From NCBI RefSeq assembly GCF_947501405.1, contig NZ_CANMVK010000005.1:1-64000 (forward strand): DNA of 64,000 bases, in the 5' to 3' direction. Positions 17,529 through 45,705 of this stretch are shown here, in pieces (the stretch's first letter is position 1; every line of letters begins with the position of its first letter). A program made the position numbers and the translations under genes. The notes under the pieces were generated by a model. It searched no databases and was not told the origin of the DNA. It saw only the letters and a program-made list of their open reading frames with translations. The stretch is from an uncultured Hoeflea sp. GTDB lineage: Bacteria; Pseudomonadota; Alphaproteobacteria; Rhizobiales; Rhizobiaceae.

Positions 17529-17970
17529 CAGGCTTCCGGTGATTGATTGTCGTGTCGCAATGACCGCTTTTGCTGCTTTGGATGTGAACAAGACCACAAG
17601 GCAAGCGCAAAAGCCATTGCCAAGTGCACAATCGGGGCACGGCGGTTCAGGCCAACGCGCGTACTCGCGGACGCGTGGATCGATGGTGCGCCCAGGACAT
17701 GCCGCGGCGCCAGCTTTGCCCGCGATTCGACCTAGACATAACGCAACGGATGATCGCCAGCCCCGGTATTTTCAGAGGATGTGCCTGTCAAATGTGCTGC
17801 CAGCTTGCGATCTCGAAAACTTGATGCAACAGGGATGACAGCTCACCAAAGTCTGAATCCTTTCGTGAGCGCGCCTTGTGTTAGGGTCGCAAACCATAGC
17901 GGACCCGAAAGTGCGGGTGAGAGCTGACTATGGGTATGACAATGCGCGGCAATTGCAAGGAATTGGCAAG
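17529..17970. other. Divergent intergenic region between two cyclase genes
   Basis: 442 bases between the CyaC-like start and the start of the second cyclase. It must hold the two divergent promoters. No convincing paired -35/-10 boxes, operator palindrome, repeat or small gene was recognised. Part of the right end (from GTG 17878) stays open in the frame of the second cyclase gene. Confidence 0.4.
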
Positions 17971-21612: not shown

Positions 21613-21614
21613 CG

Positions 21615-23522: not shown

Positions 23523-23785
23523 AGTACTCCGTGACCGTTGTCGTGTTGCGCCGAATGCAAAACAAGCCAATCATATCAACGCCTACCTGTCCGGGTATAC
23601 GATGTCTTTGGATGCCCCGCCTGCCTCGGCAAATCTCTGCCTGGGCGAAACCGTAGCCCAGAGCCTTTGGGCTGTCCATCCATGTCAGGTCTTTTGGGAA
23701 ATCGCCCAGCAGCGATGGCCGGCCCAAAAAGGCGCCTGCAGGCACGATGGCAGGAAGTCCTGAGCCGGAGACTCAACGTGTCGGC

Positions 23786-25153
23786 TTACCGGCCAATCCG
23801 TCTGGCTGAATTCTGCAGCTCCGGGGATTGTCGATTTACGATGCGGCTTTTGTTGTCATGAACCAGCCTCATCACCTGTTCGGCATCGGAGCGGGTGTCG
23901 GTCACATTGTCGTCGAGGGCGTCGGACTCCCTGAATTGCAAATTGGACGAACCGGGCAAATACACAGCAACCCTGTTGTCGATGCCACGCAACTTTTCTT
24001 CGCCAAGCAATTCCCATTCTCCGCCGCAATAGGTGACGAATTTTTCGCTGGCGACGACCGGTTGGCTGAATTTCTTGGTCAGGCTCTCAAGCCGCTGGAC
24101 TTCATTGACCGCTGCTCCGAATGCGGAAAACGTCAAACGGTTGCTCAGCCCGACATTGCCATACATGACGTTGCCGACATGCAGGCCCAGGCCGTAGCCA
24201 ATGGGGTCCAGACCGAGTTCTTCGCGCGATGTATTGAGCGCTGCCATTCGCGCCTTTGCCTGCCTGACCGCCGACATGGCCGCCCGTGCGGCAGTCTCCG
24301 AGGGGGCTCTGTGCCGGTCACAGGGATAGACGGCCAGAAATCCGTCACCGATAAAACTGATGATCTCGCCGCCGTTGCGATTGAAGGGCATGGCAATGGC
24401 GTCAAAAAAGTCATTGAGTGTATCGATGAACGTCTGACGGCTGCCATGTTCGGCCAGTCTGGTAGAATTGCGCATATCGCCCATTACCAAGATGGCGCGC
24501 ACGGTCTCGCCGTCGCCGCGGCGAATCTGACCAGACAGAACCCGCTTGCCGGCGTCGCTGCCGATATAGGTCGTCAGCATATTCTCCGCCAGTTGTCCGA
24601 GCACCGCCATGCGGCAAGCCATGGCGAGATTGCCCTGAACGCGCAGCAGCGCCTTGATCATATCTTCGCTGAAACCGTCTTTCGCGTCGGTCGCCCATGA
24701 CCCCAGCATGCCACGGTCGTCCACTTCGAATGGCTGAACAAAGGCAAGATAATCGGTAATGCCGAGTTGACGCAGATCCTCAAATATCGGGAACTCGTTT
24801 GAGGGGCTGCTGTCGAGCCGCCGGCGCAGATGTTCGAGATTGTTGCTCAGCAGATGATAGTAGGGGCTATTGACAAAGGCGTCCGGCGGCACCCCGTCCG
24901 GCGTGGCCTGGAAGTCCATCATCTCTGTTTCTGCACCACGCACCCAGGTGAAGCCCGACGCGTTGTACAGCGGGTGCAGCATCGAAAAACTCAGATGCGC
25001 CCTGGCCAGCGGCAACCCGGTCGCTGCCAGCCGATCGCAAGTTCCGACTACGATTGATTTCAAATCGTCCCCCCGCAAGCCTGCCTGCCGCATCCAGCCC
25101 ACAACCCGGTCAATCAGGGTTTCAGAGATTTCTATCCCGTTTGAGGTCGTCAT
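23786..25153 (-). CDS. Soluble class III nucleotide cyclase with N-terminal sensory region and altered base-specifying residues
   Basis: 455 residues without membrane helices. Residues 1-190 form a sensory region that I cannot assign with certainty (possibly GAF-like). Residues 215-400 are a class III cyclase domain. Metal aspartates D226 (VMGDMRNST) and D270 (FIGDGFLAVYP) are kept, as are N350 and R354. The adenine-specifying Lys is Ser266, and the matching Asp is Ala347. Catalytic chemistry looks possible, but nucleotide choice may differ from ATP. A tail of about 60 residues follows. It is divergent from lpsL, with 220 bases between the starts. Confidence 0.82.
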   Translation of the reverse strand: MTTSNGIEISETLIDRVVGWMRQAGLRGDDLKSIVVGTCDRLAATGLPLARAHLSFSMLHPLYNASGFTWVRGAETEMMDFQATPDGVPPDAFVNSPYYHLLSNNLEHLRRRLDSSPSNEFPIFEDLRQLGITDYLAFVQPFEVDDRGMLGSWATDAKDGFSEDMIKALLRVQGNLAMACRMAVLGQLAENMLTTYIGSDAGKRVLSGQIRRGDGETVRAILVMGDMRNSTRLAEHGSRQTFIDTLNDFFDAIAMPFNRNGGEIISFIGDGFLAVYPCDRHRAPSETAARAAMSAVRQAKARMAALNTSREELGLDPIGYGLGLHVGNVMYGNVGLSNRLTFSAFGAAVNEVQRLESLTKKFSQPVVASEKFVTYCGGEWELLGEEKLRGIDNRVAVYLPGSSNLQFRESDALDDNVTDTRSDAEQVMRLVHDNKSRIVNRQSPELQNSARRIGR

Positions 25154-26516: not shown

Positions 26517-27677
26517 ATGCCCGACATGGAAAAGACGACCCAGGATGGCTTTCTGGCGGTTTTGCCGACGTTCCAGCAGTTCTCCGGCGTCGAGGATATC
26601 GCCAGATACCGGGCCCTGCCCGAAGACTGGGCGCTGGCGGTTGCCGATGTGGTGGATTCCACGGGCGCCATCGCCAGGGGCAAATACAAAGCCGTCAACA
26701 TGGCTGGCGCGTCGGTGATTTCCGCGATGCTCAATGCCCTGGACAACCGCGAGCTGTTGTTCGTGTTCGGTGGCGACGGCGCGGTGGTGGCCATTCCGCC
26801 CGATGGTATCGAGAAAGCCAAAACGGCGATGGCGGCCGTGCTCAGATGGGTCGCTCAGGAACTGGACATCGAAATGCGGGGCGCATTGGTGCCTGTTTCC
26901 GAAATCGCCGCCAATGGTCTTGAGGTCAAGGTGGCCCGTTATCAGGCAAGCCCCGATGTGAGCTATGCGATGTTTGCCGGCGGCGGCGCCTCATGGGCGG
27001 AGAAGCAGATGAAAGCCGGCCAGTTTCGGATCGAATTGGCGCCGGAAGGCACCGCGCCCGACCTGACGGGATTGTCCTGCCGCTGGAGCGCGATACCGGC
27101 ACGTCACGGCCAGATTGCCTCGATCATAGTCGTGCCCGCGCAGGGCTCGGGAGACGCCGGGTTCGCCGCACTTGTCGCAGATATCACGGCGCTGTTGAAA
27201 ACAGAGGCAAGGGATGGTCACCCGGTGCCCGAGCAAGGGCCCGGCTACGGGTTTTCCGTGACCGGGATGGAAGTGGAAACCCAGATCGCGCCGGTTGCGG
27301 GTAACCGTATGAAGGTTCGGCTTTCGGTGATCGCCCAGTGGCTTTTTGTTGTCATTGTCGATCTTATCAACCGGCCGATAGGCGGGTTTGATGCACGGAA
27401 GTATCGTGCCGAAGTCGCACTGAACACCGACTATCGGAAGTTCGATGACGGTTTGAAACTGACTGTCGATATCGACGAAGACCTGACCGCACGTCTCGTT
27501 GAGCGCCTTGATGCGGCCGCGGCCGAGGGTGTTTGCCGATACGGGCTTCATCGTCAGGACTCCGCCCTGATGACATGCATCGTTCCCTCGGCCTTTCGCC
27601 AGGATCACATGCATTTTGTTGATGGCGCCGCGGGCGGCTATGCCGAAGCGGCCAAGCAACTGCGTACGCCAGATTGA
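26517..27677 (+). CDS. DUF3095 (cyclase-fold-like) protein
   Basis: 386 residues. The N-terminal half has a cyclase/GGDEF-like layout: VADVVDSTGAIARGKYKAVNM at the position of the first metal-binding strand and VFGGDGAVVAIPP at the second. These Asp motifs resemble nucleotide cyclases, but the rest of the active site is not recognisable. The C-terminal half (from about residue 240) is a separate alpha/beta domain with a KYRAEVALNTDYRKFDDGLK segment. Activity is unknown; the family is conserved but uncharacterised. It lies 105 bases after lpsL in the same direction. Confidence 0.75.
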   Translation: MPDMEKTTQDGFLAVLPTFQQFSGVEDIARYRALPEDWALAVADVVDSTGAIARGKYKAVNMAGASVISAMLNALDNRELLFVFGGDGAVVAIPPDGIEKAKTAMAAVLRWVAQELDIEMRGALVPVSEIAANGLEVKVARYQASPDVSYAMFAGGGASWAEKQMKAGQFRIELAPEGTAPDLTGLSCRWSAIPARHGQIASIIVVPAQGSGDAGFAALVADITALLKTEARDGHPVPEQGPGYGFSVTGMEVETQIAPVAGNRMKVRLSVIAQWLFVVIVDLINRPIGGFDARKYRAEVALNTDYRKFDDGLKLTVDIDEDLTARLVERLDAAAAEGVCRYGLHRQDSALMTCIVPSAFRQDHMHFVDGAAGGYAEAAKQLRTPD

Positions 27678-28940: not shown

Positions 28941-29079
28941 AACACAGGGGCGGGTCAGGGCGGCCTATGCCGCCGGGCCTTTGCATCGGTTTTCCAGACG
29001 CGGCCTAAGTCATGGACACGTCTGGAACTGTGCGTTAACGTCGCTCGCATGTAGCCCTGTATGAATGAGAAACGCCTTT

Positions 29080-30972: not shown

Positions 30973-31134
30973 GAGCCAATCCGCAGGCGAACAAGGGCCT
31001 TTTTCATGGCAATTGACGCCAACCTGTCGGCGAATGGCTGCGCCGTCGCGACATCACGGCTTTGCGGCTCTTCCGGTTTCGCGGGGGCCACGAGCCGCTT
31101 CGTCCCTTCAAATGCGAAACACTAGGCATTGGTT

Positions 31135-32343
31135 ATGATCGAGCGCTTCGAAGACGCACGCATCCTCATGTACAGCCATGACACTTTCGGCCTCGGGCAT
31201 CTGCGGCGATGCCGGACGATCGCGCATTCCCTCGTTGAGGACTATCGCGGGCTGAATATTCTTATCATCTCCGGCGCGACGATTGCCGGTGCTTTCGACT
31301 ACAGGGCCCGCGTCGATTTCGTGAAGATCCCGAGCGTCATCAAGCTGCGCAACGGTGAATACACGTCGCTCGACCGGCATATCGATCTCCACGACACCCT
31401 GAAGATGCGAACCTCGATCATCCGCCATACCGCTGAAACGTTCAAACCGGATATCTTCATCGTCGACAAGGAGCCAATGGGCCTCAAAGGTGAAATCGAA
31501 AGCACACTCGCGTATCTCAAGACCCGCGGGACCCGGCTGGTGCTGGGCCTCAGGGAAGTGATGGATGCACCGCATTTGCTGGATGCGGAGTGGAAGAAAA
31601 ACGACGTGATGGGCAAGATCGACAGGTTGTATGACCAGGTCTGGGTTTACGGTCCGCAGGAGTTTCACGATCCGCTCACCGGCCTCGAGGTTCCCAAAAC
31701 CGTGCGCTCGAAGATGGATTTCGTCGGATTTCTGCAGCGCCGGGTCTCCAGCGATGAAGAGTCTGATCATGCGCCCGAAGGGGATTACATTCTCGTGACC
31801 ACCGGTGGCGGCGGCGACGGCGCAGAGCTGGTCCATGATCTCATTCACGCCTACCAGAACGATAAATCCCTGACTCACAGGGCGCTGATTGTCCTGGGTC
31901 CCTACATGCCCGCCAAGCAGCGCCGGAAGCTCAAACGCAAGGGCGGCAAAATCCCCTATCTGGAGGTCATCGAGTTTGACAATCGCATGGAAGGGCTCAT
32001 CGCCGGCGCCAAGGCGGTGGTGGCCATGGGCGGATACAACACCTATTGCGAGATCCTGTCCTTCGACAAGCCGGCACTCATTGTTCCGCGTGTCAAACCG
32101 CGGGAGGAGCAATTGATCCGTGCCCGCCGGGCTTACGAGCTTGGCCTGATCGACATGCTTTTGCCCGAACAGGCGGCACAGCCCTTGCAGTTTGCCGCCG
32201 CCCTGAAAGCACTTCCGGATCGGGCCCCTCCATCGGCAAAGGCCGGCGGGTTGCGGCTCGAAGGCCTTCCGCATATCTCCAAAATTGTCGGACGATGGTT
32301 GCTGAACAAGCAGCAGGCCCAGCTCAGCGTCGTCAAAAGTTGA
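31135..32343 (+). CDS. GT-B glycosyltransferase, MurG/GT28-like (first paralogue)
   Basis: 402 residues. The N-terminal motif LMYSHDTFGLGHLRRCRTIAHSL is a glycine-rich acceptor-side loop. The C-terminal half has TTGGGGDGAELV and AMGGYNTYCEILSFDKPALIVPR, the nucleotide-sugar pocket pattern of GT28-type enzymes. Donor and acceptor are unknown. It starts a tight five-gene glycan run (31.1-38.3 kb) with ugd embedded in it, and is paralogous to the product at 33595. Confidence 0.82.
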   Translation: MIERFEDARILMYSHDTFGLGHLRRCRTIAHSLVEDYRGLNILIISGATIAGAFDYRARVDFVKIPSVIKLRNGEYTSLDRHIDLHDTLKMRTSIIRHTAETFKPDIFIVDKEPMGLKGEIESTLAYLKTRGTRLVLGLREVMDAPHLLDAEWKKNDVMGKIDRLYDQVWVYGPQEFHDPLTGLEVPKTVRSKMDFVGFLQRRVSSDEESDHAPEGDYILVTTGGGGDGAELVHDLIHAYQNDKSLTHRALIVLGPYMPAKQRRKLKRKGGKIPYLEVIEFDNRMEGLIAGAKAVVAMGGYNTYCEILSFDKPALIVPRVKPREEQLIRARRAYELGLIDMLLPEQAAQPLQFAAALKALPDRAPPSAKAGGLRLEGLPHISKIVGRWLLNKQQAQLSVVKS

Positions 32344-32359: not shown

Positions 32360-33598
32360 ATGCGTAAGACTGTCATTGTTTTAAAGGGCTATCCGCGTTT
32401 GTCGGAAACCTTCATTGCCCAGGAGATTCTCGGTCTTGAGCGTGCCGGTTTCGACCTGCATCTGGTGGCGTTGCGGCACCCGACGGACAGCAAGCGCCAT
32501 CCGGTCAATGACGAGATTGCGGCACCGGTCAGCTATCTGCCGGAATACCTTCATGAGGAACCGGCCAGGGTGCTCAAGGCTATGCTAGGCCAGTTGCACA
32601 AGGCGGGTTTCTGGCGCGCCTTCGCATCGCTGCTTGGCGATCTCAGGAAAGATTCCACCCGCAACCGGGTGCGCCGCTTTGGCCAGGCTGCAGTGCTCAG
32701 CGCCGAATGGCCAGAAGACGCCGCCTGGATACACAGCCATTTCATTCACACACCAGCGTCCGTGGCGGCCTATGCCAGCCAGATGCTCGAACTCGGCTGG
32801 AGCTGTTCGGCTCATGCCAAGGACATCTGGACCTCGGCAGATTGGGATTTGCGTGACAAGCTTGGTTCCATGGCCTGGGCCGTGACCTGCACGAAGAGCG
32901 GTTATGTTCACCTCAAGACTCTCGCCGGGGCCCGGGGCAACGTGCATTTGAGTTATCACGGACTTGATCTTGACCGGTTTTCCAGCTTCGAAACAGAAAG
33001 ATCGAGCCGCGATGGAACCGATCCGGCGGACCCGGTCAGGATCGTCAGTGTTGGCCGCGCGGTTGAGAAAAAAGGATACGACATTCTCCTGCTTGCGCTG
33101 AGCCGATTGCCCGCTGCGTTGAACTGGCGCTTCATCCATATTGGTGGTGGCGAAAAGCTCTCCGAGCTCAAGGCACTCGCCGACAGCCTTGGTATCAGTG
33201 ACCGGATCGAATGGCGCGGTGCGCTCGATCAGACCGAAGTGCTGGCTGAATACCGGCGCTCGGACCTTTTTGCGCTCGCCTGCAGGATCACGGCGGATGG
33301 AGATCGCGACGGGCTTCCCAATGTCATTGTGGAAGCTTCAAGCCAACGGCTTCCGACCGTTTCGACGGATATTTCGGGCATACCCGAGCTGATCACCCAT
33401 CGGGAGACCGGACTGCTTGGCCCGCCTGATGATCCCGACGCCTTCTGCGCTTTGCTCGAAGAGGCGATTGCAGACCCGGAACTGAGGCATCGGCTGGGCA
33501 ACGCCGTGGAAGCCAAGGTCCGGTCCGATTTCGATCACCATGCCAGTGTCAAGCAACTCAAACAGTTGTTTGCCGATGCCTGGACCAAAGCGATATGA
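32360..33598 (+). CDS. GT4-family glycosyltransferase
   Basis: 412 residues of the GT-B fold. The N-terminal half begins KGYPRLSETFIAQEI, typical of exopolysaccharide transferases of the ExoL/WcaL type. The C-terminal half has VGRAVEKKGYD, the ExxE-containing DGDRDGLPNVIVEASSQ and STDISGIPELI. It overlaps the next gene by ATGA and lies 16 bases after the previous stop, so all three are co-transcribed. It probably adds one sugar to a lipid-linked glycan on the cytoplasmic face. Confidence 0.9.
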   Translation: MRKTVIVLKGYPRLSETFIAQEILGLERAGFDLHLVALRHPTDSKRHPVNDEIAAPVSYLPEYLHEEPARVLKAMLGQLHKAGFWRAFASLLGDLRKDSTRNRVRRFGQAAVLSAEWPEDAAWIHSHFIHTPASVAAYASQMLELGWSCSAHAKDIWTSADWDLRDKLGSMAWAVTCTKSGYVHLKTLAGARGNVHLSYHGLDLDRFSSFETERSSRDGTDPADPVRIVSVGRAVEKKGYDILLLALSRLPAALNWRFIHIGGGEKLSELKALADSLGISDRIEWRGALDQTEVLAEYRRSDLFALACRITADGDRDGLPNVIVEASSQRLPTVSTDISGIPELITHRETGLLGPPDDPDAFCALLEEAIADPELRHRLGNAVEAKVRSDFDHHASVKQLKQLFADAWTKAI

Positions 33599-34752
33599 AA
33601 CCGCAATCGGTTCTCTTCTATGTGCAGCACCTGCTCGGAATCGGGCATCTGGCCCGCGCAAGCCGGATATCGGAGGCGCTCGCGGACGATGGCTATGATG
33701 TCACGATCGTGACCGGGGGTATGCCGGTGGATGGATTTCCGCCCGTCCGGCTTCGGCACATCGCGTTGCCGTCAATCGCTGCTCTGGATGCCGGATTTTC
33801 AGGTCTGGCCGACGCTTCCGGTGCGCCGATCGACGAGGCTTTCAAGGACCGGCGGCGCAAGCAGCTCATCGACACGTTTCACAGGGTCAAGCCGGATATT
33901 GTCTTGATCGAGGCATTCCCTTTCGGGCGCCGGCAGATGCGCTTTGAATTGCTGCCTTTGCTTAAAGAGATGCACGCCGCCAATCCACGCCCCAGGATCT
34001 ATTCGTCCGTCCGCGATGTTCTGCAAGCGCGTGCCAAACCCGGACGCGACGCGGAAAGTGTCGCTTTGCTCCGGGAATGGTTCGACGGGGTTCTGGTGCA
34101 TGGCCATCCGGATTTCATCCGGCTTGAGGAGACATTTCCGCTGGCCCACGAGATCGCTGACCGGATCATCTATACTGGCCTGGTCGTGGGGCCGGATGCG
34201 GATCCGGCGCAGGCGGGCAAATACGACATCGTTGTCTCCGCAGGCGGGGGTGCTGTCGGCGCCGGCCTTGTTCACGCGGCGGTCGAGGCTGCGCGCGAAT
34301 TGCCGCAAGCCCTGCGCTGGTGCGTGATCGCCGGGCCGTACATGCCCAAGGCTGATTATTATCGCATCGCCGGATCCGCAGCATCAAATGTCGAGATTTG
34401 CCGGTTCCGACGGGATTTCCGGGGCATTCTGAAATCGGCCGAACTCTCCGTTTCTCAGGCCGGCTACAATACGGTTGGTGATGTGTTGAGTGCCGGTTGC
34501 CGATCCATCGTCATACCTTTCACCGCCGGCGGCGAGACCGAGCAGGAAGTCAGGGCCGACCGGCTCGTTCGCAGAGGTTTGGCCCGGGCAATCCATGAGC
34601 GGGACCTGACTTCCGAAAAACTGGGCAGTGAAATCGCAAAGGCCTTGGCGACGCCGAAAATCGCGGATCCCGGGCTGGATCTTGATGGCGCCCGACGCAC
34701 CGCCGCTATCCTGAGGCCCGGCGGCATGAGACACCAGATCCCTTCCAATTGA
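33595..34752 (+). CDS. GT-B glycosyltransferase, MurG/GT28-like (second paralogue)
   Basis: 385 residues with the same plan as the product at 31135: YVQHLLGIGHLARASRISEAL at the N-terminus, SAGGGAVGAGLV in the middle and SQAGYNTVGDVLSAGCRSIVIPF in the donor pocket. The two presumably arose by duplication and now act on different linkages. It overlaps the upstream GT4 gene by four bases. A 308-base gap separates it from ugd. Confidence 0.82.
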   Translation: MKPQSVLFYVQHLLGIGHLARASRISEALADDGYDVTIVTGGMPVDGFPPVRLRHIALPSIAALDAGFSGLADASGAPIDEAFKDRRRKQLIDTFHRVKPDIVLIEAFPFGRRQMRFELLPLLKEMHAANPRPRIYSSVRDVLQARAKPGRDAESVALLREWFDGVLVHGHPDFIRLEETFPLAHEIADRIIYTGLVVGPDADPAQAGKYDIVVSAGGGAVGAGLVHAAVEAARELPQALRWCVIAGPYMPKADYYRIAGSAASNVEICRFRRDFRGILKSAELSVSQAGYNTVGDVLSAGCRSIVIPFTAGGETEQEVRADRLVRRGLARAIHERDLTSEKLGSEIAKALATPKIADPGLDLDGARRTAAILRPGGMRHQIPSN

Positions 34753-35060: not shown

Positions 35061-36365
35061 ATGAAAATCACGATTGTTGGAACCGGATATGTCGGGCTCG
35101 TTTCCGGTGTGTGTCTGTCTTCGTTTGGTCATGACGTCACTTGCGTCGACAGTTCAGGGGAGAAAATCGATCTGCTGAACTCCGGCCAGGTTCCGATTTT
35201 TGAACCGGGGCTTGATGCCCTCATCGCCGAAAATGTTGCATTGGACCGTCTTCGGTTCAGCACGGATCTCGCCACGTCGGTGGCCAGTGCGCAGGTCGTG
35301 TTCATCGCCGTTGGCACACCTTCCCGGGCCGGCGACGGGCACGCGGATTTGCAGTTCGTGCATACGGCCGTCGGGGATGTGGCGCGTGCGCTCAAGAACT
35401 ACACGGTGATCGCCACCAAATCGACCGTACCCGTGGGCACCGGCGATGACATCGAGCGGATCATCCGGCAAACGAATCCGGAGGCTGATTTTTCAGTGGT
35501 GTCCAATCCCGAGTTTCTGCGCGAGGGCGCGGCCATCGAAGACTTCAGGGCGCCAGATCGTGTGTTGATCGGTGCGGAAGACCCGCGCGCCATCGAAACC
35601 ATGGCTGAACTGTACCAAACACTCGATCCCGACCTTCACCCGCTGGTGTTCACATCACGGCGGACCGCGGAGCTGACCAAATATGCCGCCAATGCGTTTC
35701 TCGCGGTGAAGCTCGCATACATCAACGAGATCGCCGACCTTTGCGAACAGGTTGGCGCGGATGTGCAACATGTCGCGCTTGGCATGGGACTGGACAGCCG
35801 GATTGGCCGCAGGTTTTTGAACGCTGGTCCCGGATATGGCGGATCGTGTTTTCCCAAAGACACGCTTGCGCTGCTGAGGACTGCGCAGGACCATGATTCG
35901 CCGATCCGCGTCATCGAGACGATTGTCGGAATCAATGAAACGCGCAAACGCGCGATGGCGCGCAAGATCGAACGCGCCATCGGCGCCTCCATCAGAGGCA
36001 AGACGATTGGCATTCTCGGGCTGACGTTCAAGCCCAATACCGACGACATCAGGGAATCGCCCGCCCTGTCGATTATCCAGGCCCTGTTCGACAAGGGCGC
36101 ATCGGTGAAGGCCTATGATCCCGCAGGGATGAGCGCAGCGCGTTCCGTGATGCCCGGCATCGAGTATTCCGGCAGCATACGAGCCGCGGCCACCGACGCC
36201 GATGCGCTCGTCATCATTACCGATTGGGATGAATTCAAAACTCTCGACCTGGCCGACCTTCAACCTGTGATGCGTTCGCCGGTTCTGGTGGATCTTCGAA
36301 ACCTGTATGATCCGGCCCAAGTACAGGCGTCAGGATTTGCCTATCACAGCGTCGGCCGCAGATGA
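35061..36365 (+). CDS. ugd: UDP-glucose 6-dehydrogenase
   Basis: A 434-residue enzyme oxidising UDP-glucose to UDP-glucuronate with two NAD. N-terminal Rossmann motif VGTGYVGLVSG; central domain with TKYAANAFLAVKLAYINEIA; catalytic cysteine in GPGYGGSCFPKD; C-terminal UDP-binding domain with LGLTFKPNTDDIRESPAL. The product feeds lpsL (25374) and glucuronosyl transfer. Rhizobial homologues are called RkpK/ExoB-region enzymes. It sits inside the glycosyltransferase run, downstream of its own gap. Confidence 0.96.
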   Translation: MKITIVGTGYVGLVSGVCLSSFGHDVTCVDSSGEKIDLLNSGQVPIFEPGLDALIAENVALDRLRFSTDLATSVASAQVVFIAVGTPSRAGDGHADLQFVHTAVGDVARALKNYTVIATKSTVPVGTGDDIERIIRQTNPEADFSVVSNPEFLREGAAIEDFRAPDRVLIGAEDPRAIETMAELYQTLDPDLHPLVFTSRRTAELTKYAANAFLAVKLAYINEIADLCEQVGADVQHVALGMGLDSRIGRRFLNAGPGYGGSCFPKDTLALLRTAQDHDSPIRVIETIVGINETRKRAMARKIERAIGASIRGKTIGILGLTFKPNTDDIRESPALSIIQALFDKGASVKAYDPAGMSAARSVMPGIEYSGSIRAAATDADALVIITDWDEFKTLDLADLQPVMRSPVLVDLRNLYDPAQVQASGFAYHSVGRR

Positions 36366-36418: not shown

Positions 36419-37519
36419 ATGAACATCGCGTTCTATGCTCCGTTGAAGTCGCCCAACCATCCGGTTCCGTCAGGAGATCGCCTGATGGCGCGTATGCTGA
36501 TGCGGGCTCTCGAGCGCAAAGGGCACAGCGTCGAGGTTGCGTCCGAATTGCGGAGTTATTCGCGGGTTCCCGATACGGATGTGTGGACCGATCTCATAGC
36601 AAATGCCGGGCTTGAGGTATCGCGCATCTCCGAGCGGTGGCGCGATGAGCCGACCCCGGATGTGTGGTTTTGCTATCACCCCTATTACAAGGCGCCTGAC
36701 CTGATCGGCCCGAGGCTCGCAGAGAGGTTTGGCCTTGCCTATGTCACGGCTGAATCCTCATACGCGGCAAAGCGCGATGACGGTCCGTGGATGAAGTGGC
36801 AAGGTAGCGTCCGCAACGGACTGGAAAGGGCGGTTGTCAATTTCTGTCTTACCGAGCGTGATCGACCGGGGATCCTGGCCGCGGTGCCGACGGCCCGAAC
36901 GGCCTCGCTGAAGCCGTTCATCGACACGGCGCTTTTTGCCGAGAAAGGCTCAAGACGGGATGAACCCGGTTTGTGCCTCATGAGCGTCGCCATGATGCGC
37001 GAGGGCGACAAGTTCGAGAGCTACAGATTTCTTGCCGGGGCTTTGAAAAAGCTTCCCGAAAGCCTGCCCTGGACCCTGTCGGTGATAGGCGACGGCCCGA
37101 AAGCTGCGGAGGTGAAACAGCTTTTCGCAGATATTCCGGCTGGCCGGGTTGAATGGCTCGGATCAAAACCGGAGACCGAAGTCGCGGAGTTGCTAGCCAA
37201 AGGTTCGATATATGTCTGGCCTGGTAATGGCGAAGCCTATGGTCTTGCCTATCTGGAAGCGCAGGCCGCTGGTCTGCCCGTCATTGCCCAAAGAATCGCC
37301 GGTGTTCCGGAGGTGGTCGCGGATGGCGTATCCGGGACCCTCACGCCGCCGGGTGACGGTGACGCTTATGCGGGCGCCATTGCGGATTTGCTCAACGACG
37401 ATGCGAGGCGGATGGCGCTGGCGGCCAAAGCCCGCAATTTCGTGCTGGAGCAACGCTCACTTGATCAAGCCGCCGCCACGATCGATGCGATCCTCAGGGA
37501 AACGACAGGACTGAAATGA
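36419..37519 (+). CDS. GT4-family glycosyltransferase
   Basis: 366 residues. It begins MNIAFYAPLKSPNHPVPSGDRLMARML, the substrate-side loop of GT4 enzymes, and ends with the donor-site motif GNGEAYGLAYLEAQAAGLPVIAQ split by a short linker, then GVPEVVADGVSGTL. Sugar and acceptor are unknown. Its stop overlaps the start of the deacetylase-like gene (ATGATGA), so the two are coupled. It follows ugd by 53 bases. Confidence 0.88.
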   Translation: MNIAFYAPLKSPNHPVPSGDRLMARMLMRALERKGHSVEVASELRSYSRVPDTDVWTDLIANAGLEVSRISERWRDEPTPDVWFCYHPYYKAPDLIGPRLAERFGLAYVTAESSYAAKRDDGPWMKWQGSVRNGLERAVVNFCLTERDRPGILAAVPTARTASLKPFIDTALFAEKGSRRDEPGLCLMSVAMMREGDKFESYRFLAGALKKLPESLPWTLSVIGDGPKAAEVKQLFADIPAGRVEWLGSKPETEVAELLAKGSIYVWPGNGEAYGLAYLEAQAAGLPVIAQRIAGVPEVVADGVSGTLTPPGDGDAYAGAIADLLNDDARRMALAAKARNFVLEQRSLDQAAATIDAILRETTGLK

Positions 37520-38280
37520 TGAGCGGCGACAGTGTTTGGAAACCGCTGATGGATGAGCTCGACCGCTGGCAAGCCTGCGGTCGAGTCGCTGCGTTCTGGT
37601 TGCGCGACGATGATGCCGTTGTGCCAACCCGGCCACTTGAACGATTGGTCGCGATGACCGCGCGGACATCAACGCCCCTGACCCTGGCTGTTATTCCAAA
37701 GGACACGGACGCCGCGCTTTCTGACTGTCTCGGGGCGGCTCGCCACGTTACGGTGGCCGTGCATGGATGGTCTCACACCAACCATGCCGGAAGTTCAGGC
37801 AAGAAGCAGGAACTGGGTCTGCATCGGCCAAGACAAGCTGTCCTTGGTGATCTTGCGGCAGGGTTCGACAAGCTCTCGGGTCTTTACGGAGCGCAGTTTG
37901 GTGCGATGCTGGTTCCGCCATGGAACCGGATCGATTCCGACCTGCTGCCGGACCTTTCCGGCCTGGGTTACAAATCAGTCTCCGTGTTTGGACGGGAGAA
38001 ACCCGCACTCATCCGTATGATCAACACCCATGTGGATCTGATCGATTGGCACGGGAGCCGGGGAGGCCGCGATCCCAGCGTTCTGGTCCAGGAAATCGTA
38101 GCCCGGCTGCAGACGATGTTTGAGGATGGCGGGCATATGGGTTTTTTGACTCACCACCTGGTTCATGATGAGCCGGCCTGGCGTTTTCTGGACGCTTTGC
38201 TTGATAAGACGAGCCAGCATAGAGGATGCCGGTGGATGGCCGCCGGCGATCTGCAAGCGCCCAATACGGCTGCGATGTGA
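37516..38280 (+). CDS. Polysaccharide-deacetylase-like protein (NodB fold)
   Basis: 254 residues. NodB-homology motifs are recognisable in degenerate form: the catalytic-base position LRDDDA, the metal site HGWSHTNH, VPPWNR in motif 3 and GFLTHHLVHD near the end. The fold is predicted to remove acetyl groups from amino sugars. No signal peptide is seen, so it may act in the cytoplasm on the lipid-linked glycan or a precursor. It is coupled to the upstream glycosyltransferase. Confidence 0.8.
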   Translation: MMSGDSVWKPLMDELDRWQACGRVAAFWLRDDDAVVPTRPLERLVAMTARTSTPLTLAVIPKDTDAALSDCLGAARHVTVAVHGWSHTNHAGSSGKKQELGLHRPRQAVLGDLAAGFDKLSGLYGAQFGAMLVPPWNRIDSDLLPDLSGLGYKSVSVFGREKPALIRMINTHVDLIDWHGSRGGRDPSVLVQEIVARLQTMFEDGGHMGFLTHHLVHDEPAWRFLDALLDKTSQHRGCRWMAAGDLQAPNTAAM

Positions 38281-38308: not shown

Positions 38309-39187
38309 TCAGACGTCGATCACCTGGCCATCAAATGCGCAAAACGCGCCCTTGAAGCGCTTGGCTGCGAGCGTGTCGATGGCGGAGAGTTCATCATCGG
38401 TGCGTGTTGGCGCATGGTGAATAAAGCCGACCCGGCCCGCATTGGCAGCCTTTGCAAGCTTGATCGCCTGCTCCCAGGTGGAGTGGCCGTATCCGCGATA
38501 GGTGTCCATTTCGTCTTCCAGATAGGTCGTATCGTAGAAAAACAGATCCACATTGCGGATCAGGTCCAGAACTGTGGGATCCAGTTCGTCGGGAACATGT
38601 TCAGTGTCGGTGATAATGGCGACCGAACGTCCCTCCCATTCAATCCGATAACCGATCGAACCGCCCGGATGGGCCAATCCGCCGGTTTTGATGCGAATGC
38701 CGGGATGGGGTTCGAGCACGTCTCCGGCGCGAAAATCATTCATCCCCATTTTTGCGGCACAAATATCAGGCCCGACCGGAAACCAGGGAGGTTGAATGAA
38801 AGCGCAGATCATTTCCCTGGTGGTCATCTTGCCCGCGAGATGTCCGGACCAGAAGGAGACCGAGTATCCGGGAAGATACATTGGTTTGAAAAAGGGAAGC
38901 CCACTTATGTGGTCGTAATGGCAATGGCTGAAAAACAGGTTGAAGTCGGTCACACCTTCCGCAGCGAGCTCTCTGGCCGCGTTGGGAAGGCCAGTTCCCG
39001 CATCAAACAGCAAGACATGGTCGCCACACCTTACTTCGATGCAGATCGTGTTGCCGCCGAACCGGCGGAACGCGTCGCCGCAAATCGGCATGGTGCCACG
39101 CACACCCCAGCATCGAACCTGGAAAAGCGGATTTTCCGATCTACCTTCTTCGGTCACAAAACTCCATTTCCGTGGCCAGGTATTCAT
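38309..39187 (-). CDS. Metallo-beta-lactamase-fold hydrolase
   Basis: 292 residues. The N-terminal RCWGVRGTMPICG motif is followed by the zinc site SHCHYDHISGLPFF and further ligands (GLAHPGGSIGYRIE, ITDTEH, YDTTY). This is the PhnP/AtsA-like subgroup, whose members include phosphodiesterases; a cyclic-nucleotide substrate is possible but not shown. No signal peptide. It faces the deacetylase-like gene tail-to-tail (28 bases) and is divergent from the calcineurin-like phosphoesterase gene at 39382. Confidence 0.82.
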   Translation of the reverse strand: MNTWPRKWSFVTEEGRSENPLFQVRCWGVRGTMPICGDAFRRFGGNTICIEVRCGDHVLLFDAGTGLPNAARELAAEGVTDFNLFFSHCHYDHISGLPFFKPMYLPGYSVSFWSGHLAGKMTTREMICAFIQPPWFPVGPDICAAKMGMNDFRAGDVLEPHPGIRIKTGGLAHPGGSIGYRIEWEGRSVAIITDTEHVPDELDPTVLDLIRNVDLFFYDTTYLEDEMDTYRGYGHSTWEQAIKLAKAANAGRVGFIHHAPTRTDDELSAIDTLAAKRFKGAFCAFDGQVIDV

Positions 39188-39381
39188 TCACAGGCACGGT
39201 TCACGCCTGCCAATCTCGCTATTTCTGCGTTACCGTCCTGACCGCTACGCAGGCAAACCCTCAATTGCCCAAACTGTAGCCAAACTTGTTGAGTTATGCG
39301 AGGGTTGATTTTCAGATCACCCGCAGCACCTGCACGAGCTGTCGCCGCCGGGCATCGTTCCGCGTCCTGGATTGTTTCCCT

Positions 39382-41191: not shown

Positions 41192-41659
41192 TCAGTTCGA
41201 GTGCTTGGCCAGGCTTCGGGCTTCCGTCAGTTCTGTCGTCGTTTGGCTGAGACGGTCGGCCAATACGCGCATCACTTCAATTGTCATCTCAGGGTAGTCG
41301 GTCAGCATCTTTACAAAGTGATCCTTGCGGATCCGCAATGCCTCGACCGGGGTCGACGCCTGAACCGTCGCGGTCCTCGAGACATCGCAGAGAATAGCGA
41401 TCTCGCCGACAAGCGAGTTCTGCTCGACTTCAGCAACCCGGATCTGGCCATCGCCATTGGACGAGTTGACGAGAATATCGGCTTTGCCTGTCAGTATCAC
41501 ATAGGCTGCGTCGCCGGGATCTCCCTGGTTGAAGAGCACCTCGCCCGGAGCAAAGGAAACACGATCGGAGGTGAAGGCGAGCAATTTCAGTTTGGTCTGA
41601 TCAATTCCGGCCAACAGCGGCACTCGCCGCAACATCTGTACCTCGTCCTTCAGCAGCAT
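41192..41659 (-). CDS. Stand-alone cyclic-nucleotide-binding protein
   Basis: 155 residues made of a single cNMP-binding domain. The beta-roll has the FAPGEVLFNQGDPGDAAYVIL pattern split by a short linker, and the phosphate-binding cassette reads VGEIAILCDVSRTATV, with the Glu and Arg that contact the ribose and phosphate of cAMP. There is no helix-turn-helix, kinase or channel domain, so it probably regulates by binding a partner. It ends the operon methyltransferase-pseudo-ABC-this gene, and GGGAG precedes its ATG. The neighbouring pseudo-ABC protein is the likeliest partner (inference). Confidence 0.88.
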   Translation of the reverse strand: MLLKDEVQMLRRVPLLAGIDQTKLKLLAFTSDRVSFAPGEVLFNQGDPGDAAYVILTGKADILVNSSNGDGQIRVAEVEQNSLVGEIAILCDVSRTATVQASTPVEALRIRKDHFVKMLTDYPEMTIEVMRVLADRLSQTTTELTEARSLAKHSN

Positions 41660-41719
41660 GACCGCTCTCCCGTTACCGTTGGCCGCGTCATTGTGGCCAA
41701 CACGATTTCCACCCCGGCA

Positions 41720-44425
41720 TTACTTATCGAAGACGTTCTGTGACGCCAGCTTATCATATGATCCGTCTTCGGCGACCTTACCGCGATCGAATTTGATGAT
41801 TCGATCGAATTCAGGCGCCAAACCGGTCTGCGACAGGACCCAGATAACCGAAGGATTCGTGCCGTTGCTGTCGAGTTTCGTCAGCACCGTGCGCACGATT
41901 TGCTCCTGCGCGCGCTGGTCGACGCTGGCCAGCGGTTTGTTGAAGATATAGTACTCCGACTGCCTCATCAGCGCCCGGGCAAGATTGAGTTTCTGACGCT
42001 GCGCAATCGTCAGCCGTCGTCCCGAGGTGCCGATGTCGTAGTCCATTCCTACTGAGAACACGTCGTTGTACATTCCCAGATGGTCGAGGATCTTCGTAAC
42101 GATCGAATTGATTTGCTCGGCGCCATCCGCATATCTGTTGCTCAGCCGCCCGAACAGAACGTTGTCCATGATGCTGGCCGAGGCGATATAGCGCTCCGGA
42201 TCGTAGCGCTCGAAGGATCCTCGCATCTCTTCGGGCATGTTGGCGTGGAATTCCTGACGCGCGGCGACAATGGATTGCATCAGTTCGTCGGTCAAAAGAC
42301 CGAAACGGTGCCGCGGCTCAACATAGGCGAAACTCAATTTGATGATTGCGATTCTCTGTTTTTCAGTGGCGTCTTCAATAGTCTTACCCTTCAACTTCTG
42401 AAGCAATGCCTGATAGGTCGGTATGTCGTCGGAATTCATGAAGGTGAGTTGCTGGAAAAACGGGTGGTCCGGCGGCAGGTCGCTAAACAGCTCGATTGCG
42501 TTTTCAGCGATTTCGTAGCCCATCTTGAACAAGGACTTGTGAAGCTGGTGATTTGTGATCACCTTTCGGAAATAGGCATTGTCGCTGATGGCGCCGTCGG
42601 CGAACACCGCGTCAATGGCATTGCCGAACAGAAGGTTTTCTCCGACCGTCGCTTCGGCATTGTACGAGTTGGGCTCAAACGCGACGACGAGATTGCTCAA
42701 TCCCTCCTTCTCCAATGCCTCGCGCAACGCACCGCGCATTCCAATCAGTCCCTCCGCGAGCAAACCGTTCTGTTCGGGATCAATTTTTGAGCGCAACGCC
42801 AGATCCAGGACATCTTTGGACAGTTGAACGGACTCCAGAACCGCGCTCATCGTTGCGGGCAGTTCTTCCGGACTGGTCGCAATGGCCGTTCCATAATCGA
42901 CCCAGTCGTCGAAGATATCGAAATCAGGATTGCCTGAAAGCCCGGCCTCCAGGATATCGAACCTGCGGCTCTCCAATCCTTTCTCATCATATTCGGCGGG
43001 TTTAAGTGGAGCGTGCTTGAGGCCGTAGATAAGGTTGTCCGCCAGCGTGCCTGAGAAGAAGTAGGGATCTGAAGACACATAGGTGATTGCCCGCCCCGTC
43101 ACGGCTTCCGGCAGGGAGAGTATATCGTCTTCTCCTGCGGTTACCCGTCCACTTTCGGGCCGGACAATGCGCCCGAGCGCCTCGACAAAGGCCTCGCCGC
43201 CATCGGCGCTGTTGCCGATTATTCCAACCTTCTCGCCGGAATTCACCTGAAGATTGACGCGATCGACCAGCTTGGCTCCGCTGTCATCCACCACTGTCAG
43301 GTTCACCGCCGCCAAGGGATGTTTGAGGCCGCCATTGGGGATGTCGCCCGACACGGCCTGCACAGATGGCTCAACCATGTCGTCAACGACAAACTGGCCT
43401 ACCACCTGGACGTATTTGATTTGCACGTCCTGCCTGGTCTGATCCCAGTCGATCAGTTCCTTGAGCGGACCGGGAAGATCCTTGTAGGCGGCGATGACGG
43501 CAACGAGCTGTCCGATATCAAGCTGTCCGTTCAAGGCGAGATAACCGCCGACGATGTAGAACAGGAACGGCGTCACGGAAGCCAGGAAATTGTTGATGAA
43601 TTTGACCAGGAACTTCCACTGGTACAAATCATAGCGAATCCGGAAAATCCGCCCGAGCCTCGAGGTCACATCCGCACGTTCATAATTGGACGTATCGTAG
43701 GCGTGAATCGTGTTGATGCCTTCCACGATCTCACTGACCCGGCCGGAAAGCTGGCGCGCAGTCAACTGCCGTTCGCGGCCAAGCACCAGCAGCCGCTTGC
43801 GCATCTTGGGAATGATCAATGCCTGAATGCTGACCATGAAGGCGGTGATCATGCCAAGCCACATGTTCTGGACGAAGATGAAGGCCAGCGCCGTCAGCGC
43901 CTGGCCGCCGAGCAGCGCCGGCTGGACGAAGGCGTCGCCGGTGAACCCGCCAATGGGTTCGACCTCGTCCTTGACCATGGTGGCTATTTCGGCCGGTTTG
44001 ACCTGCTTGAACATGCGCGGCGGGAAGCGCAGCACCCGGTCCACCAATTCGAAACGAATCCGGCGCAGCAGGCGTTCGCCCAGCCTGCCTTTGTAGGTGT
44101 TGATGTAGAGCTTGAATAGGCCGTTGATGATGACCAGCAGAAGAAAGGTGAAGCTCAACGCATACAGCGTTGACAGCCGATCCAGATCGACTCCGGCAAA
44201 CAGCACGGTTTCGCCAATGAACGGTATATCCGGCGCGAACCGGCCGAACAGCTGTGTGGCGTCCGCCGTTTCAAATCCCTGACCCTGAATCGGCCCGTTG
44301 ACGATCCGCTTCGGCACGTCGAAGGACATGAAGTAGGGGATCATCGACAATGCGATGATAACGAGGATCCAGAGTTGCTGCTTGCGGGTATGGGTCCAGA
44401 TGTAGCGGGAAAGTTTGATTTCCAT
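41720..44425 (-). CDS. ABC exporter-like protein with degenerate ATPase motifs and a ~270-residue insertion
   Basis: 901 residues, uninterrupted. Residues 1-330 form six exporter-type membrane helices. From 370 follows an NBD whose key residues are lost: Walker A GIIGNSADGGEA (401-412) lacks the Lys and Ser/Thr; the Q-loop Gln is Ser (SSDP, 451-454); Walker B YYIFNKPLASVD (825-836) has Asn and Lys for Asp and catalytic Glu; the H-loop His is Gln866. The signature is distorted (TSGRRLTIAQRQ, 800-811). A segment of about 270 residues separates the Q-loop from the signature and repeats the post-Q-loop motif (ADNLIYG, GENLLFG, MDNVLFG). It is unlikely to hydrolyse ATP; a cyclic-nucleotide-controlled scaffold or channel is possible. 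Confidence 0.85.
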   Translation of the reverse strand: MEIKLSRYIWTHTRKQQLWILVIIALSMIPYFMSFDVPKRIVNGPIQGQGFETADATQLFGRFAPDIPFIGETVLFAGVDLDRLSTLYALSFTFLLLVIINGLFKLYINTYKGRLGERLLRRIRFELVDRVLRFPPRMFKQVKPAEIATMVKDEVEPIGGFTGDAFVQPALLGGQALTALAFIFVQNMWLGMITAFMVSIQALIIPKMRKRLLVLGRERQLTARQLSGRVSEIVEGINTIHAYDTSNYERADVTSRLGRIFRIRYDLYQWKFLVKFINNFLASVTPFLFYIVGGYLALNGQLDIGQLVAVIAAYKDLPGPLKELIDWDQTRQDVQIKYVQVVGQFVVDDMVEPSVQAVSGDIPNGGLKHPLAAVNLTVVDDSGAKLVDRVNLQVNSGEKVGIIGNSADGGEAFVEALGRIVRPESGRVTAGEDDILSLPEAVTGRAITYVSSDPYFFSGTLADNLIYGLKHAPLKPAEYDEKGLESRRFDILEAGLSGNPDFDIFDDWVDYGTAIATSPEELPATMSAVLESVQLSKDVLDLALRSKIDPEQNGLLAEGLIGMRGALREALEKEGLSNLVVAFEPNSYNAEATVGENLLFGNAIDAVFADGAISDNAYFRKVITNHQLHKSLFKMGYEIAENAIELFSDLPPDHPFFQQLTFMNSDDIPTYQALLQKLKGKTIEDATEKQRIAIIKLSFAYVEPRHRFGLLTDELMQSIVAARQEFHANMPEEMRGSFERYDPERYIASASIMDNVLFGRLSNRYADGAEQINSIVTKILDHLGMYNDVFSVGMDYDIGTSGRRLTIAQRQKLNLARALMRQSEYYIFNKPLASVDQRAQEQIVRTVLTKLDSNGTNPSVIWVLSQTGLAPEFDRIIKFDRGKVAEDGSYDKLASQNVFDK

Positions 44426-44432
44426 AGATAGA

Positions 44433-44990
44433 TCAGCTGCTTTGGTGAACAGGTTTTAAGACGTGGAACCGGCGCTCGGCGAAGGGAGTATCGGTAATTT
44501 CGGGATCAAAAAGACGCATCTCCAGCTTGCAAACCGTTTCAAGACCGGGCCTCTCGATGACCGCAGGTATCTGCGAGACCGCTCTTTCAAGGCCGGGAGT
44601 GTAATCGACAATAACGGTTTTTGCATTGTCGATCAGCGAAAAAAGCATCTCACCCAACGGATCGCGCGCGCCAAAGGATTTGAGTGAATAGCCCAGCATT
44701 ACCAGCCCATAGGTTCCAGGTTGGTAATCGAACTCCACCTCCTGGAATTTTTTGGGTATATGGCGGACATGGCAGGGCTTGCCGTTGAGCTCGAACGATT
44801 CATAAGCAACCGATTTGGGATCGACTGACATCACCGAACTGGGTGCATGGGTCAGAAACGACAGGATCGGCCGGCTGTGGCTGCCGATCTCGACAACGTG
44901 ATCACAGTCGCGCAAAAAATGGGCTGCCAGGACTTGACGCGCATCCGATCCAACTCCGCTAAGGTGAGGCAAATGCCCGTGTATTTGCAT
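44433..44990 (-). CDS. Small class I SAM-methyltransferase-like protein
   Basis: 185 residues. A Rossmann start DHVVEIGSHSRPILSFL matches SAM-binding motif I, although GxGxG is not strict. SVDPKS occupies motif II, and GLVMLGYSLKSFG the region of motif IV. The later strands are less clear, so it may bind a nucleotide or SAM without methylating. It is the first gene of the minus-strand operon leading into the pseudo-ABC gene (7 bases between them). GGAG lies nine bases before the ATG. It is divergent, by 37 bases, from another methyltransferase-like gene. Confidence 0.65.
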   Translation of the reverse strand: MQIHGHLPHLSGVGSDARQVLAAHFLRDCDHVVEIGSHSRPILSFLTHAPSSVMSVDPKSVAYESFELNGKPCHVRHIPKKFQEVEFDYQPGTYGLVMLGYSLKSFGARDPLGEMLFSLIDNAKTVIVDYTPGLERAVSQIPAVIERPGLETVCKLEMRLFDPEITDTPFAERRFHVLKPVHQSS

Positions 44991-45027
44991 TGCTTGCGCT
45001 CCAATCGAAAGAGACTACAACACGCCC

Positions 45028-45705
45028 ATGACGAACACTACCCATGTAAACCAAGCGCGCCAAATCGATTGGCATGACGCAGCCTTTGATCTGACCAGGG
45101 GACTTGCGGCCTATACCGGCAGCGATCTGGTGGCCGGCATCGCCAATGTGATCGGCAAGCATCCGCAGGCCGATATCGGCAATGCCTTCAACCATAAGCA
45201 GGTGGCCTCCAAAGTGTGGGCCCGGCAGCAGCTTTACGACAATCTCGGCCCCAGCTATCGCCGCATTCTGGTGGTGGGTGGATGGTATGGCATCCTGCCA
45301 GCCATGCTGTTTGACGATGCGCGGTTCGAGATCGGACGCATTGTAAGCTGCGATATCGATCCGGATGTGGAGATTGTGGCCAAGGCCCTGAACCGCCCGT
45401 TCTTGGAGCGTTTCGACGCGATGACAGCGGATATGTACGCTCTGGACTACGCTGCCCAGGACGCTGATCTGGTGATCAACACGAGCTGCGAGCATATCGC
45501 CGATCTTCGTGGTTGGCTTGCGCTGTTGCCGCGCGGCACAAGGGTGTTGCTGCAATCCAATGACTATTTCTCGGAGCCGACCCACATCAGTTGCGTTCCT
45601 GATCTCGACGCGTTCAGGGCTCAGGCGAATTTGGCTTCCGAGGTTTTTGCCGGTGCGTTGAAAACCAAGAACTACACCCGGTTTATGCTGATCGGCTCAG
45701 TCTAA
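45028..45705 (+). CDS. Class I SAM-methyltransferase-like protein
   Basis: 225 residues. A central Rossmann segment RRILVVGGWYGILPAMLF (motif I) is followed by SCDIDPDVEIVAKAL with an acidic residue for the SAM ribose, and DADLVINTSCEHI for motif IV. The N-terminal 80 residues (DWHDAAFDLTRGLAAYTG) are helical. Substrate unknown. It is divergent from the methyltransferase-like gene at 44990; the two face one another over a 37-base promoter gap, so they are likely co-regulated. A strong stem-loop lies downstream. Confidence 0.7.
   Translation: MTNTTHVNQARQIDWHDAAFDLTRGLAAYTGSDLVAGIANVIGKHPQADIGNAFNHKQVASKVWARQQLYDNLGPSYRRILVVGGWYGILPAMLFDDARFEIGRIVSCDIDPDVEIVAKALNRPFLERFDAMTADMYALDYAAQDADLVINTSCEHIADLRGWLALLPRGTRVLLQSNDYFSEPTHISCVPDLDAFRAQANLASEVFAGALKTKNYTRFMLIGSV

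Follow-up and report, generated by a model that had tools for sequence, protein, structure and literature searches.

What can a protein built like an ATP-binding cassette (ABC) exporter do once its ATPase residues are gone, and why should a cyclic-nucleotide-binding (CNB) protein be encoded beside it? The question is raised by a locus in a 64,000-nucleotide stretch of DNA (the window) from an uncultured Hoeflea sp. of the Rhizobiaceae (assembly GCF_947501405.1, contig NZ_CANMVK010000005.1, positions 1 to 64,000), where a preliminary description made from the sequence alone had singled out four genes:

41192..41659, minus strand: CNB gene, 155 residues, a stand-alone cyclic-nucleotide-binding protein with the phosphate-binding motif GEIAILCDVSRTATV
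41720..44425, minus strand: ABC gene, 901 residues, degenerate ABC exporter-like, with a membrane domain at about residues 1-345 and a nucleotide-binding domain (NBD) split by an insert
44433..44990, minus strand: MTa, 185 residues, an accessory gene whose family is unassigned by Pfam, NCBIfam and PDB
45028..45705, plus strand: MTb, 225 residues, weakly methyltransferase-like, an accessory gene

The open reading frames (ORFs) confirm the positions given there, the ABC and CNB genes being 60 bases apart and the divergent MTa and MTb 37 bases apart. We suggest, tentatively and at somewhat below an even chance, that the ABC protein may be an ATP-independent, cyclic-nucleotide-switched membrane component of ABC fold in a conserved glycan or glycolipid pathway. 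As judged by sequence comparison, its family is marked by a decayed ATPase, a membrane domain under the strongest constraint, a near-constant CNB partner with an intact pocket, and co-occurrence with the gene of a GT28-type glycosyltransferase, GTc.

The window ABC protein has the domains of an exporter, with Pfam matches to PF00664 (2.4e-25) and, over its cutoff and in two stretches, to PF00005 (2.7e-9). The canonical motifs used for comparison are GxxxxGKST for Walker A and LSGGQ for the signature. Two stretches stand out as dead:

43190..43216, minus strand: Walker A, residues 404-412, GNSADGGEA instead of GxxxxGKST
41936..41953, minus strand: Walker B, residues 825-830, YYIFNK, with Asp replaced by N829 and Glu by K830

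The Q-loop Gln is replaced by S452, the signature reads LTIAQ, the H-loop His is replaced by S865 (with a register uncertain by one), and the D-loop Asp836 is retained. Of a catalytic set comprising Walker A Lys and the following Ser/Thr, Walker B Asp, Glu and H-loop His, the protein keeps 0/5. The preliminary description had read the losses of the Walker A Lys, Q-loop Gln, Walker B Asp/Glu and H-loop His correctly, as it had the kept D-loop and the intact frame. The frame is open, and against the nearest relative all parts of the protein are under purifying selection, with a ratio of nonsynonymous to synonymous substitution rates (dN/dS) of 0.07-0.13. An AlphaFold2 model has a mean predicted local distance difference test score of 83.6, falling below 50 at residues 155-172 and 318-331. 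Foldseek searches with this model match MsbA, PCAT1 and P-glycoprotein, pointing to an exporter-type membrane domain, at TM-scores (target length) of only 0.44-0.59 among the half-size exporters listed; a search against viral models added nothing. The top NCBIfam match is the MsbA model TIGR02203, at 153.9 bits against an equivalog cutoff of 602 bits.

Is the loss a property of this one gene? We compared 203 loci: the window, 19 from a near-relative set (20/61 genomes matched, the window genome included), 80 from a collection of named genomes and 103 from genomes sampled across the class Alphaproteobacteria. The named-collection loci are the best 80 among 557 stretches that code for a relative (E up to 1e-3), and the remainder may include many ordinary exporters; the class loci are the best-scoring, partly hand-picked matches from a search of 385 genomes, weak and partial matches being mostly left out. 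The 203 loci hold 202 distinct proteins in 161 clusters at 90% identity, and include L102, an oddly long match that an early motif count of 98 sequences had omitted. The Walker A Lys is found in 64/203 loci, and it is followed by Ser/Thr in only 10/203, the position being Asp or Glu in 171/203. Walker B Asp is present in 18/203, Glu in 57/203, the H-loop His in 34/203 and the Q-loop Gln in 22/203. All five catalytic residues occur together in a single locus (1/203, L182), and 111/203 have none, so that intact motifs, which by the preliminary description would have refuted its idea had they been general, are not the rule. Among the 100 Hyphomicrobiales-centred loci, of which a few are Rhodobacterales by title, not one keeps the Walker A Lys (0/100). 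As read from these motifs, loss of the ATPase is graded and deepest in the window's own lineage, and hardly any locus has a complete active site. Local decay was considered and rejected, because motif loss extends to nearly all 203 loci and dN/dS is low, below 0.3 in every part of seven pairs, apart from a single segment in one pair, for which a saturated synonymous rate leaves no value.

If the ATPase is no longer what selection preserves, which part of the protein is? As a working-exporter control we used ChvA-type exporters with their motifs, taken from the 7/20 searched genomes that had a match. In these, mean identity is 73.5% for the NBD and 60.2% for the membrane domain, the NBD being higher in 20/21 pairs. 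The degenerate ABC family in the same seven genomes gives 67.1% for the membrane domain and 47.4/45.4% for the NBD halves, with the membrane domain higher in 21/21 pairs, and in the class set of 80 it is the more alike in 3009/3160 pairs. The membrane domain is thus the best conserved part of the ABC family, the reverse of what is seen in a working exporter.

The NBD has also been enlarged. Between the Q-loop and the signature lies an insert of about 270 residues, missed by the preliminary description, which is kept across the family and takes part in what appears to be a threefold repetition of the Q-loop/helical module:

42191..43000, minus strand: NBD insert, about residues 476-745
42788..43090, minus strand: Q-loop/helical module copy 1, about residues 446-546 (hhalign)
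42512..42706, minus strand: Q-loop/helical module copy 2, about residues 574-638 (hhalign)
42038..42232, minus strand: Q-loop/helical module copy 3, about residues 732-796 (hhalign), followed by the degenerate signature

Copies 2 and 3 align at E 1.3e-15 (probability 98.6), copies 1 and 2 at 3e-7 and copies 1 and 3 at 4e-6, each value coming from a single hhalign run on segments picked by eye. Every copy has an N-x-x-x-G core; the core Asn of copies 2 and 3 (N597 and N755) is present in 203/203 loci and that of copy 1 in 194. With no search aimed at it, no other ABC protein is known to us with such a triplicated layout.

The partner gene is almost as constant as the ABC gene itself. The window CNB protein matches PF00027 (5.6e-21), its sole Pfam match above cutoff, and shows no helix-turn-helix or other DNA-binding domain. 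A CNB gene lies downstream of the ABC gene, on the same strand and within 700 bases, in 197/203 loci; in 11 of the 197 it is fused to the C terminus of the ABC protein, and loci added later supplied three further fusions. In L209 and L040, Pfam places the membrane domain, ABC_tran and the CNB domain in a single chain. The co-conservation that the preliminary description had asked about is found in nearly all of the family. In CNB domains generally, an Arg binds phosphate and a Glu binds ribose. Here the Arg is present in 197/197 and the Glu in 188/197, with Asp in eight more. The solved relatives high in the list of CNB matches are the regulatory domains of PKA and PKG, behind one large parasite protein; the Sinorhizobium meliloti gene is annotated as Crp/Fnr.

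Six loci (L130, L143, L212, L225, L226 and L233) have no CNB match. Contig ends were examined as a cause and ruled out, since each locus has at least 1.4 kb of sequence downstream, where a diverged CNB gene could nonetheless escape. The Walker A Lys is retained in each of the six, and of the five loci in the whole set with 4/5 or more catalytic residues, three belong to this group; L233 ranks with L182 for the best-preserved motifs. The pattern was noticed post hoc, and the six include two same-genus pairs. In the class sample, a missing CNB gene is associated with at least four kept catalytic residues (p 0.001). Better ATPase sites where the sensor is missing would be the pattern expected if the sensor had taken over from ATP.

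A further line of evidence links the ABC gene to glycan synthesis. Neighbour counts use the 19 near-relative loci, the 80 named-collection loci and 80 of the class loci, with flanks that extend to about 9 kb at most around the loci of the first two sets and to about 6 kb at most around the class loci. A match to the GTc seed is near the ABC gene in 11/19, 58/80 and 52/80 loci; we used this seed alone, because one ORF can match two glycosyltransferase seeds and so inflate counts of two or more glycosyltransferases, and a GTc-seed match can also be the gene of GTd, a GT28/MurG-like enzyme. Across the 385 alphaproteobacterial genomes, 125 hold both the ABC family and GTc, seven the ABC family alone, two GTc alone and 251 neither. 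The ABC family is thus present in 132/385, a count that includes some partial genes and one protein without an NBD (L239, genome G384), and 125 of the 134 genomes with either gene hold both. The Fisher value of 8e-90 for this co-occurrence overstates independence because the sampled genomes are related. The link is not one of neighbourhood only, since in some of the 125 genomes the two genes are far apart, as in G439 and G361, where they occupy distant places on one contig. A comparison gene, DUF3095, occurs in 25/385 genomes, of which 20 have the ABC family (counted by eye); it too is enriched, but comes nowhere near the almost one-to-one pairing seen with GTc. Of 398 genomes sampled from the phylum, the share outside the class being unstated, 27 have a match (E up to 1e-90), and every one of these is alphaproteobacterial. 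The family also occurs on plasmids, with 263 plasmid records in all, including pSymB of S. meliloti. The pSymB copy of strain 1021 (H4) aligns in two pieces and that of strain 2011 (H12) in one. The S. meliloti ABC gene is probably SMb20813, a number given to the msbA homologue in a published account (PMC10945364).

In the window, the ABC gene sits in a wider island of about 15.7-45.7 kb, which the preliminary description had also missed:

31129..32343, plus strand: GTc, GT28-type glycosyltransferase
32360..33598, plus strand: GTb, GT4-type glycosyltransferase
33595..34752, plus strand: GTd, GT28/MurG-like glycosyltransferase
35061..36365, plus strand: protein of the UDP-glucose/GDP-mannose dehydrogenase family
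36419..37519, plus strand: GTa, GT4-type glycosyltransferase
37516..38280, plus strand: PE254, polysaccharide-deacetylase-like by eye only, without a family match, often adjoining the glycosyltransferases
38309..39187, minus strand: hydrolase of the MBL fold (RNase Z-like), in Hyphomicrobiales frequently a neighbour of the CNB gene
15753..17597, minus strand: class III cyclase with an N-terminal membrane part (by eye) and a 2Fe-2S domain
17878..19326, plus strand: class III cyclase, PF00211 at 4e-5, just over cutoff
23786..25153, minus strand: class III cyclase
26517..27677, plus strand: DUF3095 protein with class III cyclase-like metal motifs, by eye only

In the class set GTc often heads a divergent run in the order GTc-GTb-GTa-GTd-PE254. 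The glycosyltransferases, the deacetylase-like gene, the class III cyclases and the MBL-fold gene, and not the four genes of the preliminary description, form the wider context. The four-gene cassette was ruled out as a unit, since MTa is seen in 12/203 loci and MTb in 30/203, both lower bounds (the flanks of 23 loci are just about 1.5 kb long, and others are cut off by the end of a contig). That two of the four are methyltransferase-like held in part for MTb, whose matches are weak and below cutoff (Methyltransf_25 at 0.015 in Pfam, one NCBIfam model at 0.032) and whose S. meliloti counterpart is annotated as a class I methyltransferase; it did not hold for MTa, for which searches of Pfam, NCBIfam and the PDB gave nothing at E up to 1.

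Other genes share the neighbourhood. The island also contains ABC importer genes of the peptide type (two for permeases, as judged by eye, one for a solute-binding protein and one for a dual ATPase), at 19442-23570 and 29065-30972, and importer genes also adjoin the same glycosyltransferases on S. meliloti pSymB. A calcineurin-like phosphoesterase (39286-41148, 620 residues from a TTG start) is encoded between the CNB and MBL-fold genes on the opposite strand; such a gene is near the ABC locus in 3/19, 10/80 and 0/80 loci. Directly after MTb follows a CHASE4-GGDEF protein, a probable diguanylate cyclase (45974-47380), a match to which is near the ABC gene in only 1/19, 2/80 and 3/80 loci.

How might these parts work together? 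The glycosyltransferase set would build a glycan or glycolipid, and the ABC protein would be the membrane component of that pathway, its membrane domain moving, or opening a path for, the product without ATP hydrolysis. The swollen pseudo-NBD would act as a relay on which the CNB protein docks, and a cyclic nucleotide made by class III cyclases would open or close the device through the CNB protein; removal of that signal may, in Hyphomicrobiales, fall to the MBL-fold hydrolase. Movement might be driven by a proton gradient, as reported for SbmA/BacA (PMC13316013), or need no drive if the protein is a scramblase. Put in its most specific form, the protein would be a cyclic-nucleotide-gated, ABC-fold glycolipid conduit or flippase whose NBD became a second-messenger relay through loss of catalysis and copying of the Q-loop module, with signalling replacing ATP as control and a gradient or scrambling serving as drive; we regard this version as possible though doubtful. 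Gating by a cyclic nucleotide "instead of ATP", as the preliminary description had it, is likewise something we infer from sequence patterns.

Genes that could make or remove such a signal are found near some of the loci. Cyclases of two seed types are near in 8/19, 30/80 and 7/80 loci, and in L205 and L209, two loci with a fused ABC-CNB gene, 88 and 63 bases separate that gene from the end of an upstream class III cyclase ORF on the same strand. A search of sixteen genomes was partly selected for nearby cyclases and is not used as a rate. The whole window genome has seven class III cyclase matches at E up to 1e-6, the gene at 17878-19326 not being among them. The MBL-fold gene is near in 14/19 and 36/80 loci of the first two sets; its product scores 28 bits against a cyclic-nucleotide phosphodiesterase model with a cutoff of 400.

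Five relatives (L235-L239) show no NBD in the same chain, so that the ABC membrane fold occurs without an NBD in these and not in the window protein, where a pseudo-NBD is kept. L239 is an ORF of 345 residues beside the same glycosyltransferase and deacetylase-like genes; L235-L238 have about 400 residues with an extra N-terminal stretch, and the neighbours of L235-L237 look, by eye, like copper resistance genes. For the two of them examined with Pfam, L239 and L237, ABC_membrane is the sole match. No CNB match lies near the five in the stretches examined, that of L239 reaching only 2.2 kb downstream. The five form one clade (support 0.989) whose placement in the tree is unsupported.

Several observations weigh against an ATP-independent, cyclic-nucleotide-switched component. 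Loss of the ATPase is family-wide but not uniform: the class sample, which lies outside the window's order, keeps the Walker A Lys in 64/103 loci and the Glu in 56/103, and L182, with all five catalytic residues, lacks only the Q-loop Gln. Because of this retention, ATP binding may survive in some branches. In the class sample alone, a missing CNB gene is not significantly associated with a kept Lys (p 0.08), and by analogy with HetC, whose CNB domain bound ppGpp, CNB-type domains can bind ligands other than cyclic nucleotides. The signal genes are not constant either: the window's three class III cyclases are about 17-24 kb away from the ABC gene and do not adjoin it, no seed-type cyclase is found in the available flanks of 73/80 class loci, and the MBL-fold gene is near in only 1/80 of them. 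Since the five NBD-less proteins form one clade, they perhaps reflect one loss event. Finally, the family is patchy in the window's own genus, and it appears dispensable there because only 2/18 genomes hold it.

What else could the locus be? The pseudo-transporter might move nothing and serve as a membrane platform on which glycosyltransferases are gathered or switched, with the CNB protein as its sensor. Such a scaffold would need no working NBD, would fit the co-occurrence with GTc even where the two loci are apart (G439 and G361), and could use the conserved pseudo-NBD and its insert as a binding surface. We nonetheless consider it rather unlikely: conservation is highest in the membrane domain and lower in the cytosolic part, and five relatives keep the membrane domain only, so that a job inside the membrane is favoured. 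Another candidate is a secondary transporter of the SbmA/BacA kind, in which the ABC membrane fold has lost its ATP drive and runs on protons with a substrate of its own. SbmA/BacA sets a precedent for an ABC exporter membrane fold that works without NBDs and on protons (PMC13316013), and NBD-less relatives exist here too. We hold this explanation to be unlikely, as the window protein (E up to 1) and two of the five NBD-less relatives (0.01) have no SbmA_BacA Pfam match, and the part of that paper at hand describes no GTc or CNB link for SbmA (PMC13316013).

ATP might on the other hand still matter, if the protein were the decayed member of an exporter heterodimer whose intact partner is encoded elsewhere, or a stand-alone ATP binder that does not hydrolyse. 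Heterodimers with one degenerate site are common among type IV exporters, and some branches here keep both Lys and Glu. We think it quite improbable, since 171/203 loci have an acidic residue in place of the Walker A Ser/Thr, NBD-less relatives exist, and no second exporter gene stands out among the conserved neighbours, although no specific search was made and the rest of the genomes was unchecked. The doubt may instead concern the CNB protein, which could read another ligand, such as ppGpp, or regulate independently of the ABC protein. The ppGpp binding of HetC and the Crp/Fnr filing of the S. meliloti gene speak for this. The conserved pocket Arg and Glu, the PKA/PKG relatives, the missing DNA-binding domain match, the fusions to the ABC protein and the cyclases upstream of two fused genes argue against it, and the probability we give it is low.

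Should the preferred reading of a cyclic-nucleotide-switched, ATP-independent component be right, the locus would represent an ABC family whose ATP engine has been replaced by second-messenger input, with its stages still visible: near-intact motifs in L182, lost motifs, an enlarged pseudo-NBD, fusion of the sensor and, in the last stage, an NBD gone altogether. Cyclic nucleotides would moreover be connected to a glycan pathway that 132/385 of the sampled genomes of the class possess, and the S. meliloti pSymB genes would offer a testable handle.

How does the locus compare with systems already known? The preliminary description had called the combination unlike any named system, and we found no description of a dead-ATPase ABC protein with a CNB partner in the one open-licence library searched. 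CNB proteins of the bacteriocin-type transport-associated family TIGR03896 are tied to an ABC exporter operon, as here; the window CNB protein scores far under the cutoff of that model (49.9 bits against 161). HetC of Nostoc shares a CNB domain joined to an ABC exporter. In the HetC study, the CNB domain belongs to a peptidase-containing exporter, is N-terminal and needed for function, and bound ppGpp, not cAMP, while the ATPase Glu and the peptidase are also required (PMC10986499). HetC is a case in which an ABC exporter cannot do without its CNB domain, and a warning that the ligand of such a domain may not be a cyclic nucleotide. Compared with HetC as so described, the ATPase here is degenerate and the CNB protein is separate or C-terminal; Pfam finds no peptidase in the window ABC protein or in two fused ABC-CNB proteins. 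SbmA/BacA (SLiPT) resembles the degenerate ABC family in having an ABC exporter membrane fold, which it uses without ATP drive as is proposed here, and a glutamate ladder and proton coupling are described for it (PMC13316013). It differs in that here a pseudo-NBD is usually kept and the context is one of glycan genes. With the type IV ABC exporters (MsbA and the ABCB family), finally, the window protein has in common the membrane domain family and the order of the NBD motifs, and it is set apart from them by ATPase residues lost family-wide, an NBD swollen by module copies and a CNB partner.

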